In this document: positions 12,594 through 24,373 of the stretch, one piece after another | Layout of the letters: each line of letters starts with the position of its first letter | Numbering within the stretch: position 1 is the stretch's first letter | DNA from: Candidatus Gastranaerophilales bacterium | Lineage (GTDB): Bacteria > Cyanobacteriota > Vampirovibrionia > Gastranaerophilales > Gastranaerophilaceae | Assembly (NCBI GenBank): GCA_944325895.1 | Contig: CALVCA010000015.1 | Span: 1 to 33,618, forward strand | Reading direction: 5' to 3' | Length of the DNA: 33,618 bases | Translations under genes and position numbers: made by a program | Notes under the pieces: model-generated | The model's database searches: none | What the model was told of the DNA's origin: nothing | The model's input: the letters and a program-made list of their open reading frames with translations, nothing else

Positions 12594-12618
12594 AAAGCAC
12601 CCATAGGGTGCTTTTTTT
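12592..12618. terminator. Terminator between converging rpsN and the orphan gene
   Basis: AAAAAGCACCC-ATA-GGGTGCTTTTTTT: a GC-rich 6-bp stem extended by five A-T pairs, flanked by A- and T-runs, so it can act in both directions. It overlaps the rpsN stop on the left and touches the TAA (12617-12619) of the minus-strand gene on the right. Confidence 0.9.
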
Positions 12619-12910
12619 AAGCTAATTTGTCAAAGTTTTGTCCGACTTTAGACATACTTGTTTCAAATATGGCATCCATATCGTCAGGAAAATCCAATTC
12701 TAAATTACATGGTGCAGATGGATTTTTTTTGTACATATCTTTGTAAAAATTTTCTAATTGTTTAGCCGCTTTTTGACCGTTTTTTGCATAGCTGCATGCT
12801 GTGCCCAGCATATAATCACGTTTCAAACAAGCTTCTTCATCAGGCATTGTTTGGTTGGCATTGAGCCGGTATTTTCCGGCAAAGTTAAGATTTGAGTTAA
12901 TTCCATTCAT
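12617..12910 (-). CDS. Small lineage-type orphan protein inverted inside the ribosomal cluster
   Basis: 97 aa from ATG 12910 (the codon before it is a GTG that could also initiate). The minus strand carries AAAGGCGG about 7 bases upstream. The N-terminus MNGINSNLNFAGKYRLNANQ shows the NFxGK motif also seen in the protein at 4483. The rest is helical and charged, with three cysteines and an acidic stretch (LDFPDDMDA). It has no signal peptide and no membrane segment. I recognise no family. It sits on the opposite strand between rpsN and rpsH, where other bacteria have no gap, suggesting insertion by rearrangement. Confidence 0.7.
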   Translation of the reverse strand: MNGINSNLNFAGKYRLNANQTMPDEEACLKRDYMLGTACSYAKNGQKAAKQLENFYKDMYKKNPSAPCNLELDFPDDMDAIFETSMSKVGQNFDKLA

Positions 12911-13018
12911 CACACTACCGCCTTTCTTTTTATGTTAAAACGTATGAATTTAATTAATTGCTTTAAATATTGTCAGGCATTAAGAAATGTAAAGCAGATT
13001 ATTCTAATTATTAACATG

Positions 13019-14768: not shown

Positions 14769-15095
14769 ATGTATAACAATTTTCATTATGACTTGGCGGG
14801 GCGAATACAGCATACAAAACTTGATACCATAATGCCTTCAGCCCGATTGGACAGAGTAGAAACGACATCATCACCTGACTTTAAGCAGGTAATGTCCGGG
14901 CTTATTGAGAATTTTAATGCTGAACTGAATGAGCCGGATAATTTGTTGAAAGATGCAATGTCAGGGAACGGAAATGTTGATATTCACGATGTTATGACCG
15001 CAATGGCGAAATCAGAAATCAGCGTGAATGTAGCAACACAGTTAGTAGGAAAAGTTATACAGGCATATGAAAAAGTTATGCAAATTCAAGTGTAA
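14769..15095 (+). CDS. fliE: Flagellar hook-basal body protein FliE
   Basis: 108 aa. The C-terminal half matches FliE: DVMTAMAKSEISVNVATQLV followed by GKVIQAYEKVMQIQV, the helix that connects the MS ring to the proximal rod. The N-terminal half is variable, as usual in the family. AAAGG lies 8 bases before the ATG. It is the first gene of the operon, 16 bases before fliF, the same order as the common fliE-F-G-H block. Its presence points to a flagellar rather than a non-flagellar type III system. Confidence 0.88.
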   Translation: MYNNFHYDLAGRIQHTKLDTIMPSARLDRVETTSSPDFKQVMSGLIENFNAELNEPDNLLKDAMSGNGNVDIHDVMTAMAKSEISVNVATQLVGKVIQAYEKVMQIQV

Positions 15096-15111: not shown

Positions 15112-16755
15112 ATGGATTTTCAAAAACTACTTCAAAACAAACCATTATTATACGGGATAATAGGCGGTGTCATATTACTTTTGGCATTATTTATAACCAT
15201 AGGTATAGTAAATTCGTCAAAAGGCGGAAACGGTGCTGCTAAAGTAGTGAGCGAAAAAGTTATAAAAGAGCCTTTGGATTTGTTGACAACGGATAATTTA
15301 GGAAAAGCAATAGAAATTCAGGCACTTTTGGCAAGAGAAGGGATAACGGCAAGCAGAAAATTAGACGGAACAAAGTCAACGGTATTTTTGGCAGAATACA
15401 CTCAAAGCCAGCGGGATGCAGCACTTTTGGCAATAGTTAAAAGCGGGTTAATGGATCAAAACGTTGGTTTAGAGATTTTTGATAAGGGTGATTTCACATC
15501 AACAAAAGAGGATAAGCGGATAAGACTTGCCAGGGCAATCAACGGCGAACTTGCAAGATTAATTCGTAAAATTCCTCCGATAGAAAACGCATCTGTATTT
15601 ATATCAATACCTGAACAAACAATGTTTACGTCAATGCAAAAACCAGTAACGGCGACAGTTCAGATAACAATTCCTGCAGGCGACAGACTGGATCAGATAA
15701 AAGTAAAAGCCATAACAAATCTTTTATTGGGCAGTGTTACGGGTTTGACAGCAGAAAATATTGCAATAACCGATACAAACGGCAATGTTTATACGAGCAT
15801 AATTGATGCTCAAGACGAAATGCTTGAAAGGCTGCAGGAAAACGATAAATATATGCAGCAAAAAGTTGCAACGCAATTGGACAGATTAATCGGTAAAGGC
15901 AATTATGTAGTAACCGTCAGTACGTTTTTAAGACAGGCTCCGGTAGAAAAATACACGATTGAATATGATCCGACCAAAAAAACTGCGGTATCGGAACAAA
16001 ATTTTACGGAAGGTTTGGGCGATCAAACACAGGATTCAAATAAAAATGTGAGTGCTGTTAGTGTATATTTGCCGAACGGGCTGGCACAGGGCGGATCTGA
16101 CTCGACTCAAAACAGAAATTATTCAAGATCTGCAACAGAGACTCAGTACGGAGTTACAAAAACACAAACAAATGAATATATAAAACCCGGTGTTGTTGAA
16201 GAAATTTCTGTTGCTGTAACATTGGAAAAATCAGCATTACCGGCAAATACAACTTTAGAAGAATTAAAAGATTTGATAGCACATGCAGCAAGTCCGAAAG
16301 TAGATCCGGAAAATGTATCAATAGCATTTTCAGATTCAACAGATCCTTACCTTGCTTCAGACAGACCTGTTAATTTGCCAAAGCCGGATGAAACAGGAAA
16401 TCCGTGGTGGCTTGCTATTGCTTTAAGCGGTGCCGGTTTGTTAATTTTATTCAAGGTTGTATCAGATAAAGTAAACAAAGTCAGAGAAGCTAATTTGAGA
16501 GAAGTTGAACAATTGAAACAAAAAACTGCGGCACAGGAAAAACAATTAAGTGATATTAACAACCGTGCGGCACAGTTGACGGAAAGACAGACAGAATTGG
16601 CACAAAATCTTTTGGAACAGCAGCAGAGAGAATATATACCGCAGCAGGATGAAGGTCAATTGCTGGATTCTTTGGCAAATATTTCAGCAGAAATATCTGA
16701 CGCTGATGATGAAGAAGCAGCAGAAAAAATAAAAAGTTGGATTGAACAAGGTTAA
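15112..16755 (+). CDS. fliF: Flagellar MS-ring protein FliF
   Basis: 547 aa, normal length. One N-terminal membrane segment (about residues 12-32, LLYGIIGGVILLLALFITIG) and one C-terminal (about 432-450, WWLAIALSGAGLLILFKV) flank the periplasmic YscJ/FliF ring-building region. That region contains LARAINGELARLIRKIPPIE, NASVFISIPEQ and TVQITIPAGDRLDQIKVKAI. The cytoplasmic C-terminus ends in an acidic helix (ISDADDEEAAEKIKSWIEQG), which in the family binds FliG. Its stop overlaps the next start (TAATG), so the two proteins are made in a coupled way. Confidence 0.95.
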   Translation: MDFQKLLQNKPLLYGIIGGVILLLALFITIGIVNSSKGGNGAAKVVSEKVIKEPLDLLTTDNLGKAIEIQALLAREGITASRKLDGTKSTVFLAEYTQSQRDAALLAIVKSGLMDQNVGLEIFDKGDFTSTKEDKRIRLARAINGELARLIRKIPPIENASVFISIPEQTMFTSMQKPVTATVQITIPAGDRLDQIKVKAITNLLLGSVTGLTAENIAITDTNGNVYTSIIDAQDEMLERLQENDKYMQQKVATQLDRLIGKGNYVVTVSTFLRQAPVEKYTIEYDPTKKTAVSEQNFTEGLGDQTQDSNKNVSAVSVYLPNGLAQGGSDSTQNRNYSRSATETQYGVTKTQTNEYIKPGVVEEISVAVTLEKSALPANTTLEELKDLIAHAASPKVDPENVSIAFSDSTDPYLASDRPVNLPKPDETGNPWWLAIALSGAGLLILFKVVSDKVNKVREANLREVEQLKQKTAAQEKQLSDINNRAAQLTERQTELAQNLLEQQQREYIPQQDEGQLLDSLANISAEISDADDEEAAEKIKSWIEQG

Positions 16756-17756
16756 TGGCAATAAAAGGTTTTAATTATCAGGAATTTGCACAAAATTTAA
16801 CGGCACAGGCACAAGAACTTGTACCGCAGGATTTTTCGCCGCAAGATAAACAATATGTAGTAAACACATTGCTCAATTTTTCCACTTTAGCCGGTGAAGC
16901 GATTTATAATGATACTGAATCGAATTTCAATGCAGATCAGGCAATGATGATTACCCAAATAATTGCGGAATGGTCGTTCCACAAATCGGTTGATTTAGTG
17001 CGATCAGAGTTGCCTCAGCAGTTTTGGGATCCGATAATGCAAAAGATTGCATTTACGATTTTTGAGATAGCAAAACAAACTTTTAAGCAGGGGCTTCCTC
17101 AGGATCAGATATTACAATTAATAGAACATCACGTTAAGAAAACATACCTTGACGCAATTGCGGAATTGAAAGATAAAGGTATGATAAATGAAGCCTTGAT
17201 GGAGCAGGCAGCAAAGCAATCGAATATAGATGCTATGATGCAGCAAATGAGTGAAACGGAGCAAGAAGTTCCTCAAGAAGCACCTCAAGGAGTACCTCAA
17301 CAAACACCCCAAAGAGCACCGCAAGAAGCACCTCCACCGCCTGCTACAAGTTCAAAAGTTTTAAAACTTGCAACGGTTGCTTTGTTGTTTAGAAAAATGA
17401 AACAGGAAAAAGTTCAGTCGATTTTGAATAAATTTAATCCTGAAGATGCTCAAACTGTTATAAAATATATGGGTATGCCTGATTTAGAAAGCAGGGTGAG
17501 CGTTAATACAGCGTTAAGATGTTTAAATGAAATAAGAACTAATTTACCCAAACCCCAGGAATTCAGTCCGAGTAAAATTGTGGCAAAAATTCAAAATGTT
17601 ACACAAGGGATAGAACGGCAACAATTGGAAACAATATTGAAACATGAAAGAATGAAGGTAAGACGCCTTGTATTCAATGCTTTAGAGGGAGAATATTATG
17701 AAGTACCGCCAAAAGTTGCTAACATTATTGCCACCCATATACAAGATAGTGTATAA
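16755..17756 (+). CDS. Divergent FliG-like protein (FliF partner, no visible motor domain)
   Basis: 333 aa in the fliG position, coupled to fliF by TAATG. Residues ~1-170 are helical and not recognisably FliG. A Pro/Gln linker follows (about 172-198: repeated PQEAP, PQQTP, PPPP). The C-terminal ~135 residues resemble FliG armadillo units: KLATVALLFRKMKQEKVQSI and LNKFNPEDAQTVIKYM recall the AAILLxxLGEExAxxVLKxL helix pair. QQLETILKHERMKVRRLVFN recalls the EHPQ segment of the middle domain. The protein then ends at HIQDSV. The FliG C-terminal torque domain with its charged helix and rRxMF-type motifs is not seen. It is probably the switch/C-ring adaptor, but only context and weak similarity support this. 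Confidence 0.6.
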   Translation: MAIKGFNYQEFAQNLTAQAQELVPQDFSPQDKQYVVNTLLNFSTLAGEAIYNDTESNFNADQAMMITQIIAEWSFHKSVDLVRSELPQQFWDPIMQKIAFTIFEIAKQTFKQGLPQDQILQLIEHHVKKTYLDAIAELKDKGMINEALMEQAAKQSNIDAMMQQMSETEQEVPQEAPQGVPQQTPQRAPQEAPPPPATSSKVLKLATVALLFRKMKQEKVQSILNKFNPEDAQTVIKYMGMPDLESRVSVNTALRCLNEIRTNLPKPQEFSPSKIVAKIQNVTQGIERQQLETILKHERMKVRRLVFNALEGEYYEVPPKVANIIATHIQDSV

Positions 17757-17767
17757 TAATATTAATC

Positions 17768-18442
17768 ATGATTATCAAAAAGAAAAAAAATGAACCGAAA
17801 GAAGAAGTTGCTGAGCCTAAGAAAGCCGATGATGATTCAATCGACCTTTTTAATTTGGATAACATTGACTTCAAGCAACGGAATGAACGCCGCAGGGGCG
17901 ACAGGCGAAGGGGCTTCAGAAGGATTGATGACAGGAATTTAATATCCAGGGCACGGGAAGAAGCTGATGCAATTCGAGAAGCTGCGGCAAAGGAAGGGTA
18001 TCAAGACGGTTTGACTAAAGCCCATGATGACATTGAATATTTAAAAAATTCAATGGCGGAATTTATCAATGCAAAACAGGATGTTTTTGATAAAATTGCA
18101 CCTGAAATTCTTTCAATAAGTGTTGATATAGCAAAAAAAATCATTAAAAACGAAATAACCCAAAATCCCGAACTTTTGGCATCAAGCGTAATGGAAATAT
18201 TAAAAGGACTTTCAAAAGAAGAAAGTAAAATTACAATACGCACAAGTCCTTTACAAGTGAGTTTGTTAAAAGGGCAAATTCCTGAGATGGCAGAACAGTT
18301 GGGTTTAGATGCAAAAATATCGGTCATCCCTGATGAATCGATTTCTGAAGGCGGTTGCATAGTAACAACGACAAACGGTATAGTAGATGCTACAATTGAT
18401 ACACAATTGGCAATAATCAGCGAGGCTTTAAAAGAAGTTTAA
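17768..18442 (+). CDS. fliH: Flagellar export ATPase regulator FliH
   Basis: 224 aa. An acidic/basic N-terminus (including an Arg-rich RRRGDRRRGFRR stretch at about 40-52) leads into a long helix with small-residue spacing (REEADAIREAAAKEGYQDGL), typical of FliH/SctL stalks. The C-terminal domain has SVDIAKKIIKNEITQNPELL and the ending SEGGCIVTTTNGIVDATIDT. FliH normally holds the ATPase FliI at the export gate, but no fliI gene follows; flhA overlaps its stop by one base (TAATG). Confidence 0.9.
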   Translation: MIIKKKKNEPKEEVAEPKKADDDSIDLFNLDNIDFKQRNERRRGDRRRGFRRIDDRNLISRAREEADAIREAAAKEGYQDGLTKAHDDIEYLKNSMAEFINAKQDVFDKIAPEILSISVDIAKKIIKNEITQNPELLASSVMEILKGLSKEESKITIRTSPLQVSLLKGQIPEMAEQLGLDAKISVIPDESISEGGCIVTTTNGIVDATIDTQLAIISEALKEV

Positions 18443-20535
18443 TGGCTCAAGGTAGTACAGGCAACAATCCAATAAGTGAAATTTTTCTGGCGGTATTTGT
18501 ACTGGCACTTCTTTTAATATTGCTTGTTGAAATGCCGACCTGGATTATCAATTTTTCAATAAGTTTAAACATAACCCTCGGAATTGTACTTTTGATGATA
18601 GCTTTATACGTTCAAAAAACGCTTGAACTAGCGGCATTTCCGTCAATAATCCTTTTAGGAACCATGTTCAGGCTTGTATTATCAATAGCATCAACGAGGT
18701 TAATTTTGGCAAAAGGTGAAGCTGGCGAGGTAATTCATGCATTCGGAACATTTGTAACCGGCGGAAACATGATTGTAGGCGGTGTAATTTTCTTAATTAT
18801 AACGGTTGTACAATTTATGGTAATCACAAAAGGTGCGGAACGTATAGCTGAGGTATCTGCAAGATTTGCATTGGACGCTATGCCCGGTAAACAAATGACA
18901 ATTGACGCTGATTTTAACGCTGGTTTAATTTCGCCGGAAGAGGCTACCAAAAAGCGTGAAGATTTACAAAGGGAGTCAAACCTTTTCGGTTCCATGGACG
19001 GTGCTATGAAATTCGTAAAAGGGGATACAATTGCCGGTATAATTATTGTAATTATAAATATTGTCGGCGGGTTGTGTGTCGGATGTTTGATGAATCAAAT
19101 GCCGCTTGCAGACGCTGTTTCAAAATATACTATTTTGACAATAGGTGACGGTTTGGCATCGCAGGTTCCTTCACTTTTAATGTCAATAGCTGCCGGTGTA
19201 TTTATGACCCGTTCATCAGCGGCAAGTGCTTCGTTAGGTGCTGATGTTGCCGGTGAAATTTTAAGTAAACCTTATTCACTGTTTTTTGCCTCGGGATTTT
19301 TAATGCTGCTTGCAATAACCGGTCCTATAACAGGGTTGCCGTGGCTGCCGTTTTTGGCTTTTTCAATAGGAATAGGCATTGCGGGATTTTCAGTATTAAT
19401 TAACGCTGATGTTCAATCGCAGTTAGGTCAGTTAGAGAATGTTCGGCAAAACATGCAGGATTTGGTTAACCCGAACAGGATGTATGAACGTTTAGGTGTT
19501 GATGTTTTAAGTTTGCAGGTAGGATCTAACCTTCTTGTAATAGCTGACCCTGATCAAGAGGGACAATTACTTGCTAAAATTGCCGCATTACGTCAAAGGG
19601 TTACCGATGAATTGGGATACATTCTTCCGAATATAAGAATTATGGATTCATCAGCTTTGGATGCAAATGAATATATGATATCTATCCGTGGAAATACCGT
19701 TGCAACAGGCTATGTTTATCCGGGCAGGCTTATGGTAATTGCGGATCAGTGGGATTCTATGAGAAAAGAAGTTCCTGATGATGCGATAATCGGTATTGAC
19801 CCGACTTATCAAACTCAAGCTTACTGGATTACGGCTGAAGATGCCAAAACTGCACGTTCTGTTACGGCAGTTGATTCTACTGATGTTATCGTGACACACC
19901 TTCAAGAATGCGTCAGAAAATACGTTGACGATGTTATGACAAAAACTGATGTATTAAAACTTATGGAACTCGTTCGTTCACAAGACCCGACTCTTGTTAA
20001 TGACCTTGTGCCGACTATTATTTCCACAAGCGATTTGAGAAAGATTTTTGTTAACCTTATTCGTGAAAAAGTTTCTATTAAAGATATTATTTTTGTATTT
20101 GAAAGATTGTGCGATTACGCAAGATTTTCAAAAGAACCTGATATATTATCGGAACGATTAAGAGCTGCTTTGGGACGTCAAATTTGTTTGTCTAACGTTC
20201 AGGAAGACAAAGTTTTGTATGCACTGACGCTTTCTCCCGAATGGGAAAAGATATTAGATGACAGCTGCCAAAGAACAGAGCTTGGAACAATGTTTTTATT
20301 GAATCCTATGCAGGTGCAAGAACTTATTGAAACGGCTGCAACCACGTTAATGCGTGCACATCAGGCATGCGGCAAGCAGCCGGTTATTCTGTGTTCTCCA
20401 AGAATCAGACTCCCGCTTTATCAGCTGCTTGAACGTCATATCCCGACTATTGTCGTTATTTCGTATTCGGAATTGATTACGGATATTAAGGTCGAAGCAC
20501 TTGATACTATCGGTGAATCTTATGCAGTGGAATAA
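18442..20535 (+). CDS. flhA: Flagellar export gate protein FlhA
   Basis: 697 aa, full length. The N-terminal half has eight predicted membrane segments and the FHIPEP-family signatures [20 protein letters not shown] and [29 protein letters not shown] follows, the cytoplasmic loop with the Asp implicated in proton use. The C-terminal cytoplasmic domain (about 350-697) forms the ring that docks export substrates and chaperones. FliE in the same operon supports FlhA over the SctV paralogue of injectisomes. Translationally coupled to fliH upstream; its last codons overlap the start of yidD. Confidence 0.95.
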
Positions 20536-23347: not shown

Positions 23348-24373
23348 TTAAAACCATGGATAATCATCAGGGATTTTCCACCCATTTTTTTGTATTACAG
23401 CCCCGCAATATGCAGAAGTGCTCAGACCTCGACCTTTAGCCGTGCATGCCCAAATAATTGTTCCATCTCCATTCATTAGGTATTCATAAGAATGATCAAA
23501 GCCGTACATTTTAAGGGTGTTATTGCCGCTGTATAATTGCATTGTAAATATATCTTTGCTAACAGTATTTGGCTTTTGAGGACCGTTTATGTCAACATAT
23601 ATTAACATATTTCCCATGGTAAAATCCCCTTGATAAGAGTCGAATGCTAAGATAACCAAAGTGGAATTATTCAAAATAAATCTATACATTCCTCTTAAAT
23701 CAATCTTGCTTCCGTCAGTAGAATACATTGTATAATCACATTTTTTTGTTGTTCCGGTTTCGCAATCTGATGCAACTCGTAAATAGGGGAATAGATATGT
23801 GTGTGTAAATGAACGGTAAGCGTCATTTAAAGGTGTGTTGTCGCCGTCTACGGGATTTTTTGGTTTAAAACTCCATGAGGACATATCACCGTGATCTTTT
23901 TGAGCCATCGTAAAAGCATTGGAAAGAGTAGAAAAAGTTTTCTTTAGCTGAGTGGCTGTAACAATTTTTTGGTATTCATTAATAAGATTAGGAATAGTCA
24001 ACGCAGCGACAACCCCAATAATCCCGAGGGTGATGAGAACCTCAGCGAGGGTGAAGGCGGCACGATGATTATTGTCAAACGTACCTACGTGCGTAGCACC
24101 TTCGGCGAGGGCGAAGGCGGCACGACGATTTTTGCCAAACATACCTACGTGCGTAGCACCTTCGGCGAGGGTGAAGGCGGCACGACGATTTTTGCCAAAC
24201 ATACCTACGTGCGTAGCACCGCTCCGCTCAGAATGACGGATGGAAGGGAATGAGGGAATTAGGAAATAAGGGAATAAGTTCGTTAATAAGTTATTTTGGC
24301 ATAGTGCCATAGTAACTTTATTAAAAAATCTACCCTTTATTTTTTCAACCCAATTTACCCTTTTATAATTCAT
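23348..24373 (-). CDS. Type IV pilin-like protein with a tandemly repeated processing region
   Basis: 341 aa from ATG 24373. Residues 107-130 are a classic prepilin N-terminus: FTLAE followed by VLITLGIIGVVAALTIPNLI, with Glu at +5, so cleavage before F107 by a prepilin peptidase is expected, although the residue before it is Ala rather than Gly. The ~105 residues before it are far longer than a normal leader (5-30). They contain three 20-residue copies (52-71, 72-91, 92-111), each ending RRAAF(T/A)LAE or HRAAFTLAE. The body (about 135-341) is a pseudopilin-type domain with several Cys and a DINGPQKPNTVSKDIF segment. The start is supported by a consensus promoter placing the RNA 5' end at the ATG. 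Shorter products could start at Met58 or Met78 inside the repeats. Confidence 0.75.
   Translation of the reverse strand: MNYKRVNWVEKIKGRFFNKVTMALCQNNLLTNLFPYFLIPSFPSIRHSERSGATHVGMFGKNRRAAFTLAEGATHVGMFGKNRRAAFALAEGATHVGTFDNNHRAAFTLAEVLITLGIIGVVAALTIPNLINEYQKIVTATQLKKTFSTLSNAFTMAQKDHGDMSSWSFKPKNPVDGDNTPLNDAYRSFTHTYLFPYLRVASDCETGTTKKCDYTMYSTDGSKIDLRGMYRFILNNSTLVILAFDSYQGDFTMGNMLIYVDINGPQKPNTVSKDIFTMQLYSGNNTLKMYGFDHSYEYLMNGDGTIIWACTAKGRGLSTSAYCGAVIQKNGWKIPDDYPWF
24041..24220. repeat. Three 60-bp tandem repeats inside the pilin gene
   Basis: Units at 24041-24100, 24101-24160 and 24161-24220 are exactly 60 bp, so copy number can change without shifting the frame. Copies 2 and 3 differ at a single base (24112 versus 24172). 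Copy 1, next to the pilin body, has diverged at several sites. Each unit ends with CTACGTGCGTAGCACC, also found in the repeat at 23238. Confidence 0.95.
24205..24303. repeat. Right flanking direct repeat of the pilin locus
   Basis: CTACGTGCGTAGCACC (overlapping the last tandem unit), CGCTCAGAATGACG (24225-24238), a short purine-rich insertion, then GGGAATAAGTTCGTTAATA and an AT tail ending TTTTGGCATA. It lies within the 5' coding part of the pilin gene, where it is translated as MALCQNNLLTNLFPYF and SIRHSERSG. Confidence 0.75.

Follow-up and report, generated by a model that had tools for sequence, protein, structure and literature searches.

FliG is normally required both for the building and for the turning of the flagellum. 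Its N-terminal domain (FliG_N) binds the tail of FliF, at approximately residues 520–560 (PMC4768692). In Buchnera, motorless hook-basal bodies are formed without motA/motB and flagellin (PMC8109811). Among Melainabacteria, Di Rienzi et al. (2013) listed 13 shared flagellum-related genes and read the MEL.A1 set as reduced; for ACD20, the list includes gene numbers 21 (fliF) and 23 (fliH) and omits number 22 (PMC3787301). The literature searched, in which few subscription papers were covered, yielded no paper describing the apparatus analyzed below, the genes of which were counted as flagellar in earlier papers.

Here, we describe a protein of 333 amino acids, denoted P1, that occupies the FliG slot of a flagellar-type gene cluster in a Candidatus Gastranaerophilales bacterium and is devoid of the torque domain. 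The DNA analyzed, referred to as the window, is a stretch of 33,618 nucleotides that constitutes contig C15 of a 1.69 Mb genome with 99.8% completeness. P1 (16755..17756, plus strand; characterized by ORF translation, Pfam, and AlphaFold2) is not a FliG that has been damaged, nor does it belong to a motor; it is a component of a second, class-wide export apparatus of the flagellar type. On the same strand, the P1 gene is preceded by fliE (14769..15095; Pfam FliE, 63.6 bits) and by the fliF gene for the MS ring of the second system (15112..16755; Pfam YscJ_FliF and YscJ_FliF_C, and tail comparison), and is followed by fliH (17768..18442; Pfam FliH, 80.5 bits) and by the flhA gene of the second system (18442..20535; Pfam FHIPEP, 719 bits), which the tree separates from flagellar FlhA. 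All these neighbors exceed the Pfam cut-offs, and the ATG of P1 shares the sequence TAATG with the fliF stop codon, which couples the two genes. The gene order that points to FliG, the coupling, and the exact boundaries of the P1 frame are all as given in the initial annotation, which was made from the sequence alone. Elsewhere in the window, a 98-aa ORF lies antisense within the ribosomal protein cluster upstream of fliE (12617-12913, minus strand), and a prepilin-like protein (23348-24373, minus strand), the start of which resembles that of the product of L047:13115-14089, carries the sequence ATHVGMFGKNRRAAFTLAE two to three times at its N-terminus, ahead of the genuine FTLAEVLITLG motif.

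The P1 frame is not a chance ORF, because a homolog is present in 143 of the 146 genomes of the order Gastranaerophilales and dN/dS is about 0.07 (0.065–0.068, compared to 0.01–0.09 for the neighboring genes, in comparisons of the window with two near relatives). P1 is thus under strong purifying selection. In public records, the homologs with informative source names come mostly from Candidatus Gastranaerophilales, which are gut Melainabacteria. With a P1 profile, relatives were also detected in further families of the class (e-values from 1e-4 to 1e-25), most of them encoded in the same cluster.

No Pfam or NCBIfam family reached its cut-off at any point along P1, and searches of PDB sequences with P1 or the P1 profile returned nothing useful. 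The best match to a FliG family was FliG_N at residues 207–241, with 12.4 bits where 25 are required; two P1 relatives matched the same model with 16.4 and 14.6 bits. Matches of P1 to Abi_2, p16-Arc, and SrfC, all under their cut-offs, were judged to be due to chance. The AlphaFold2 model, built with 80 homologs (pLDDT 82), consists of a confidently predicted N-terminal helical bundle of no known family (residues 1–168; 16755..17258, plus strand) with helices at 8–22, 29–52, 60–84, 88–112, and 116–140 followed by two short ones; a disordered Pro/Gln-rich linker (residues 164–196; 17244..17342, plus strand; pLDDT < 50); and a C-domain (residues 197–333; 17343..17753, plus strand) in which the first 70–90 residues or so are predicted to be FliG_N-like and are followed by a small helical bundle. 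The helical part of the C-domain starts at residue 200, for a domain length of 137 aa, and the model stops at its last helix; when modeled separately, the C-domain reached a pLDDT of 86.5. This architecture closely reproduces the division into about 170 novel residues, a Pro/Gln linker, and about 135 residues resembling FliG that had been proposed from the sequence.

Foldseek searches with the full model and with the C-domain produced no significant e-values. After re-ranking with VIA-align, the top five rows for the C-domain were all FliG and three of these were FliG_N: 8umx_B (Z 6.4, 66 aa, 3.4 Å, FliG residues 1–66), the FliF-FliG structure 5wuj_B (Z 6.4, 69 aa, 3.9 Å), and the FliFc:FliGn complex 5tdy_D (Z 6.0, 85 aa, 4.9 Å). 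Rows four and five were 4fhr and 1lkv, with MgtE next, and the first unrelated chain scored Z 3.3, compared to 6.0–6.4 for the FliG_N rows. With the full P1 model, FliG chains from three C-ring structures aligned to approximately residues 196–333, and 8vib_G aligned to 198–267. An hhalign comparison of P1 with FliG proteins of the same order was weak, and the alignment was spread over several FliG regions. We read the C-domain as probably a FliG_N-like, FliF-binding domain rather than the FliG middle domain, an assignment that is not certain because the Foldseek e-values are not significant, helical domains readily reach Z scores of about 6, and the profile-profile signal is weak. The earlier proposal, in which the FliG-like part ends about where the middle domain ends, is corrected in this respect, the best structural matches being to FliG_N.

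Structure prediction and the structural searches with the full model and with the C-domain revealed no complete FliG fold. The absence of the torque domain noted initially was borne out by the lack of any PF01706 (FliG_C) match in P1 or elsewhere in the source genome. The EHPQR-type FliM-binding motif was not found in the P1 translation; the flagellar FliG proteins of the same order show ENPQLIA in this respect. No fold could be assigned to the N-domain, for which the VIA-align rows represent common helical arrangements and are not proof of a new fold. In other contexts, the N-domain occurs alone, ahead of transmembrane helices, or fused to the cytosolic domain of FlhA. The N-domain, transmembrane helices, and an FlhA cytosolic domain follow one another in a single frame of 694 aa at L059:9722-11803; at L058:9768-10457, L060:6621-7604, and L050:10846-11406, the N-domain stands alone or is followed by hydrophobic, probably membrane, segments. 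In one family (L207, L208), P1 is only about 130 aa long and corresponds to the C-domain alone; the core of the protein would accordingly be the C-domain, and the N-domain an addition. In other families, loci L050, L051, L202, and L204 contain an extra helical gene of about 170–190 aa between fliF and P1; for two of these loci (L050 and L051), the interval was noted to hold an N-domain copy in tandem.

The presumed partner of the C-domain is encoded immediately upstream. The fliF gene in the window ends in a conserved C-terminal helix, AEKIKSWIEQG, which from its sequence is presumed to be the P1-binding tail. This helix is kept across the class with an invariant Trp (IKNWIESS, IQSWIEST, and LQIWLEEG in the second-system FliF of other families) and can be compared with E. 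coli VALVIRQWINNDHE. In the same order, flagellar FliF proteins have a different ending, for example, ARLLLSYVKE.

Canonical FliG_C exceeded the cut-off in 52 of the 146 genomes of the order, and nearly the same genomes encode MotB (52/146) and flagellin (54/146). Counted from the lists of genomes with P1 homologs and with FliG_C, P1 and a canonical fliG occur together in 50 of the 146 genomes, P1 being missing from just two of the 52 genomes with FliG, G095 and G030. In those genomes with both for which the loci were inspected, the P1 operon lies apart from the flagellar fliE-F-G-H-I genes, and a fliF is present at either locus. Flagellate genomes also encode two full-length FlhA proteins (approximately 870 and 720 bits) and, in addition to FliM and FliN, a third SpoA protein. 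The P1 set is retained in genomes without flagella, including the source genome, which has no match to the MotB plug or to Flagellin_N. A search for a second, canonical FliG, as recommended in the initial annotation, found none in the source genome and one, at a site away from P1, in 50 genomes of the order; the implied picture of a single, odd flagellum gives way to one in which P1 belongs to a second apparatus that coexists with the canonical fliG and flagellum in those 50 genomes.

The remaining parts of this apparatus are dispersed in the source genome, and together the second system comprises flagellar-type MS ring, rod, and export genes. Contig C6 (locus L047) encodes a 395-aa SpoA protein, fliO, fliP, fliQ, a 120-aa protein, and fliR. 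An alignment with FliM covers about the first 230 residues of the SpoA protein and, further on, its SpoA domain (272–343), such that the protein looks like the FliM and FliN parts in a single chain. The 120-aa protein in the fliQ-fliR interval (L047:11860-12219) has an N-terminal hydrophobic stretch and matches T2SS-T3SS_pil_N (PF13629) with 22.5 bits at a cut-off of 23, a borderline similarity that is the only hint seen of a possible outer-membrane partner or secretin. Contig C43 (L145) encodes FlgB, FlgC, and two FlgF/G-like proteins, and contig C25 (L146) carries FliJ-like, FliK-like, and hook-like genes, with the Pfam support residing on the counterparts in L053. In early-branching genomes, a single long cluster encompasses two FlgG-like genes, FlgB, FlgC, a transglycosylase, FliE, FliF, P1, FliH, FlhA, and FliI, and in some of these genomes, also FliJ, FliK-like, and hook-like genes. 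In the source genome, FlhA is matched a second time by a 490-aa soluble protein (L197:8649-10118, contig C8) that contains the FlhA cytosolic domain without the membrane domain.

Next to the SpoA gene on contig C6 lie members of a protein family in which the ends, MG(L/M)xASQARxLxLTARK... and ...ELRLRQLDTEQEALQTEMEAVKKVIEKNIESTFKTFE, are conserved and the middle is variable; no fitting Pfam family was found. Flagellins are likewise laid out as conserved ends around a variable middle. The family is represented in 30 of the 80 fetched P1 loci, with 31 members compared to about 7.5 expected at the genome density, the loci being related and not independent. In the order, 144 of the 146 genomes have members, and 11 matches fall in the source genome; because both this family and P1 are nearly universal in the order, their co-occurrence is not independent evidence. 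The family is the lead candidate for the filament or cargo of the apparatus. Members, with conserved helices at the N-terminus (MGLxASQARLLxLTARK) and the C-terminus, were recorded on contig C6 (L047:7246-8988, 988-2109, and 478-810) and at L065:808-2040, L084:639-968, L112:48-1730, and L159:16604-17512.

The FlhA tree places the second system in one clade (100/100) on a long stem, and SctV forms its own clade (100/100) apart from it. The split between the second system and flagellar FlhA received 86/88 and is not decisive, and a joint clade of the second FlhA with the flagellar FlhA of the same lineage, as would result if the former were a copy of the latter, was not rejected (p-AU 0.185). 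The FlhA encoded in the window scored 695 bits with the flagellar model and 583 bits with the SctV model.

We consider it fairly probable (roughly 0.75) that P1 is the MS-ring adaptor of a second type III export apparatus of the flagellar type that has no motor. The C-domain would clamp, or co-fold with, the C-terminal IKSWIE helix of FliF, and the N-domain on its flexible linker may, as a guess, recruit the SpoA protein, FliH-FliI, or both as the cytosolic platform, along with cargo; the fusion of the N-domain to the FlhA cytosolic domain in L059 hints at the export gate. The static ring would export a rod- or hook-like tube and, probably, the conserved-end family, and would turn no propeller. 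More tentatively, and with the odds somewhat against so broad a claim, the system might represent a third deep branch of the type III export family, in addition to flagella and injectisomes. Such a branch would extend throughout the class of the non-photosynthetic sisters of Cyanobacteria and would have P1 as its own ring adaptor, a platform protein of the FliM+FliN-like type, and a multi-copy filament or cargo family of flagellin architecture that is dedicated to it and made by non-motile gut bacteria.

Partial gene sets of this kind were interpreted as reduced flagella by Di Rienzi et al. in 2013 (PMC3787301) and by Soo et al. in 2014 (PMC4040986), and the source genome, which has no filament gene and no MotB, might appear to be a case in point, with P1 a truncated, decaying fliG left from a flagellum that is being lost together with its motor and filament. 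We regard this as very improbable: the P1 frame is open in 143 of the 146 genomes, its dN/dS is low, the system has its own fliF and flhA, P1 extends to other families of the class, and the intact canonical fliG beside it in 50 genomes is already contradictory, such that a degenerate flagellum is rejected because of coexistence with the canonical one and selection. Less probable still is an apparatus that continues to rotate, with another protein or the new and conserved N-domain of P1 engaging an unrecognized stator, given that 94 of the 146 genomes, nearly all with P1, lack MotB, the source genome has no flagellin to turn, and the N-domain also occurs ahead of transmembrane helices and fused to the FlhA cytosolic domain. 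Of the two possibilities raised initially, an apparatus without the usual kind of rotation is supported by the lack of FliG_C, MotB, and flagellin in the source genome, and nothing was found to suggest that a different protein supplies the motor domain.

An injectisome-like, genuinely non-flagellar device for the delivery of effectors to other cells via an outer-membrane pore, with P1 as an adaptor on the SctK/SctD side, has more in its favor, namely the motorless export core, the resemblance of the SpoA protein to SctQ-type FliM/FliN fusions, and the borderline pilus/secretin N-terminal (PF13629) protein between fliQ and fliR. It is nevertheless unlikely in view of the position of FlhA outside the SctV clade, its better fit to the flagellar model, and the presence of FliE, FlgB, and FlgC, the absence of which defines non-flagellar type III secretion systems; under the Abby and Rocha criteria, these three genes make the second system flagellar in type (PMC3459982).

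If P1 is the adaptor of a motorless flagellar-type export apparatus, the genes shared among published Melainabacteria genomes, which the accessible papers interpret as a flagellum that is either complete or in decay, fit this second system instead; the omitted ACD20 gene 22, between fliF and fliH, fits P1. A flagellar-type machine with a ring-anchor-like domain and a new domain in the FliG slot, kept by an abundant and uncultured gut lineage, suggests that torque-free export can last over long periods of evolution. It would be a case of change from flagellum to secretion in bacteria other than Proteobacteria and Chlamydiae, and gives an indication of possible secreted products of gut Melainabacteria.

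Like FliG, P1 is encoded between fliF and fliH, and its C-domain is probably FliG_N-like; unlike FliG, it has neither FliG_C nor an EHPQR-type motif, and it possesses an additional N-terminal helical domain. Non-flagellar type III secretion systems, including the secretin-less form of Myxococcales, similarly combine a motorless export core with a SpoA-domain platform protein, but lack FliE, FlgB, and FlgC, all of which the second system has along with an FlhA outside the SctV clade (PMC3459982). The nearest functional precedents are the hook-basal bodies of Buchnera and the FliF-FliG fusion of Chlamydia. As in Buchnera, rod, MS ring, and export genes are retained without MotB and flagellin, but Buchnera has the ordinary FliG, FliM, and FliN of a reduced flagellum, whereas the second system is separate and in relatives stands beside intact flagella (PMC8109811). 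As in Chlamydia, a FliG fragment without the torque domain is found in a non-flagellated bacterium, but the chlamydial fragment is the M region, joined to a FliF of reduced length (the FliF-FliG(M) fusion), whereas P1 is a protein in its own right, FliG_N-like and equipped with a new domain, that accompanies a full-length FliF (PMC4768692).
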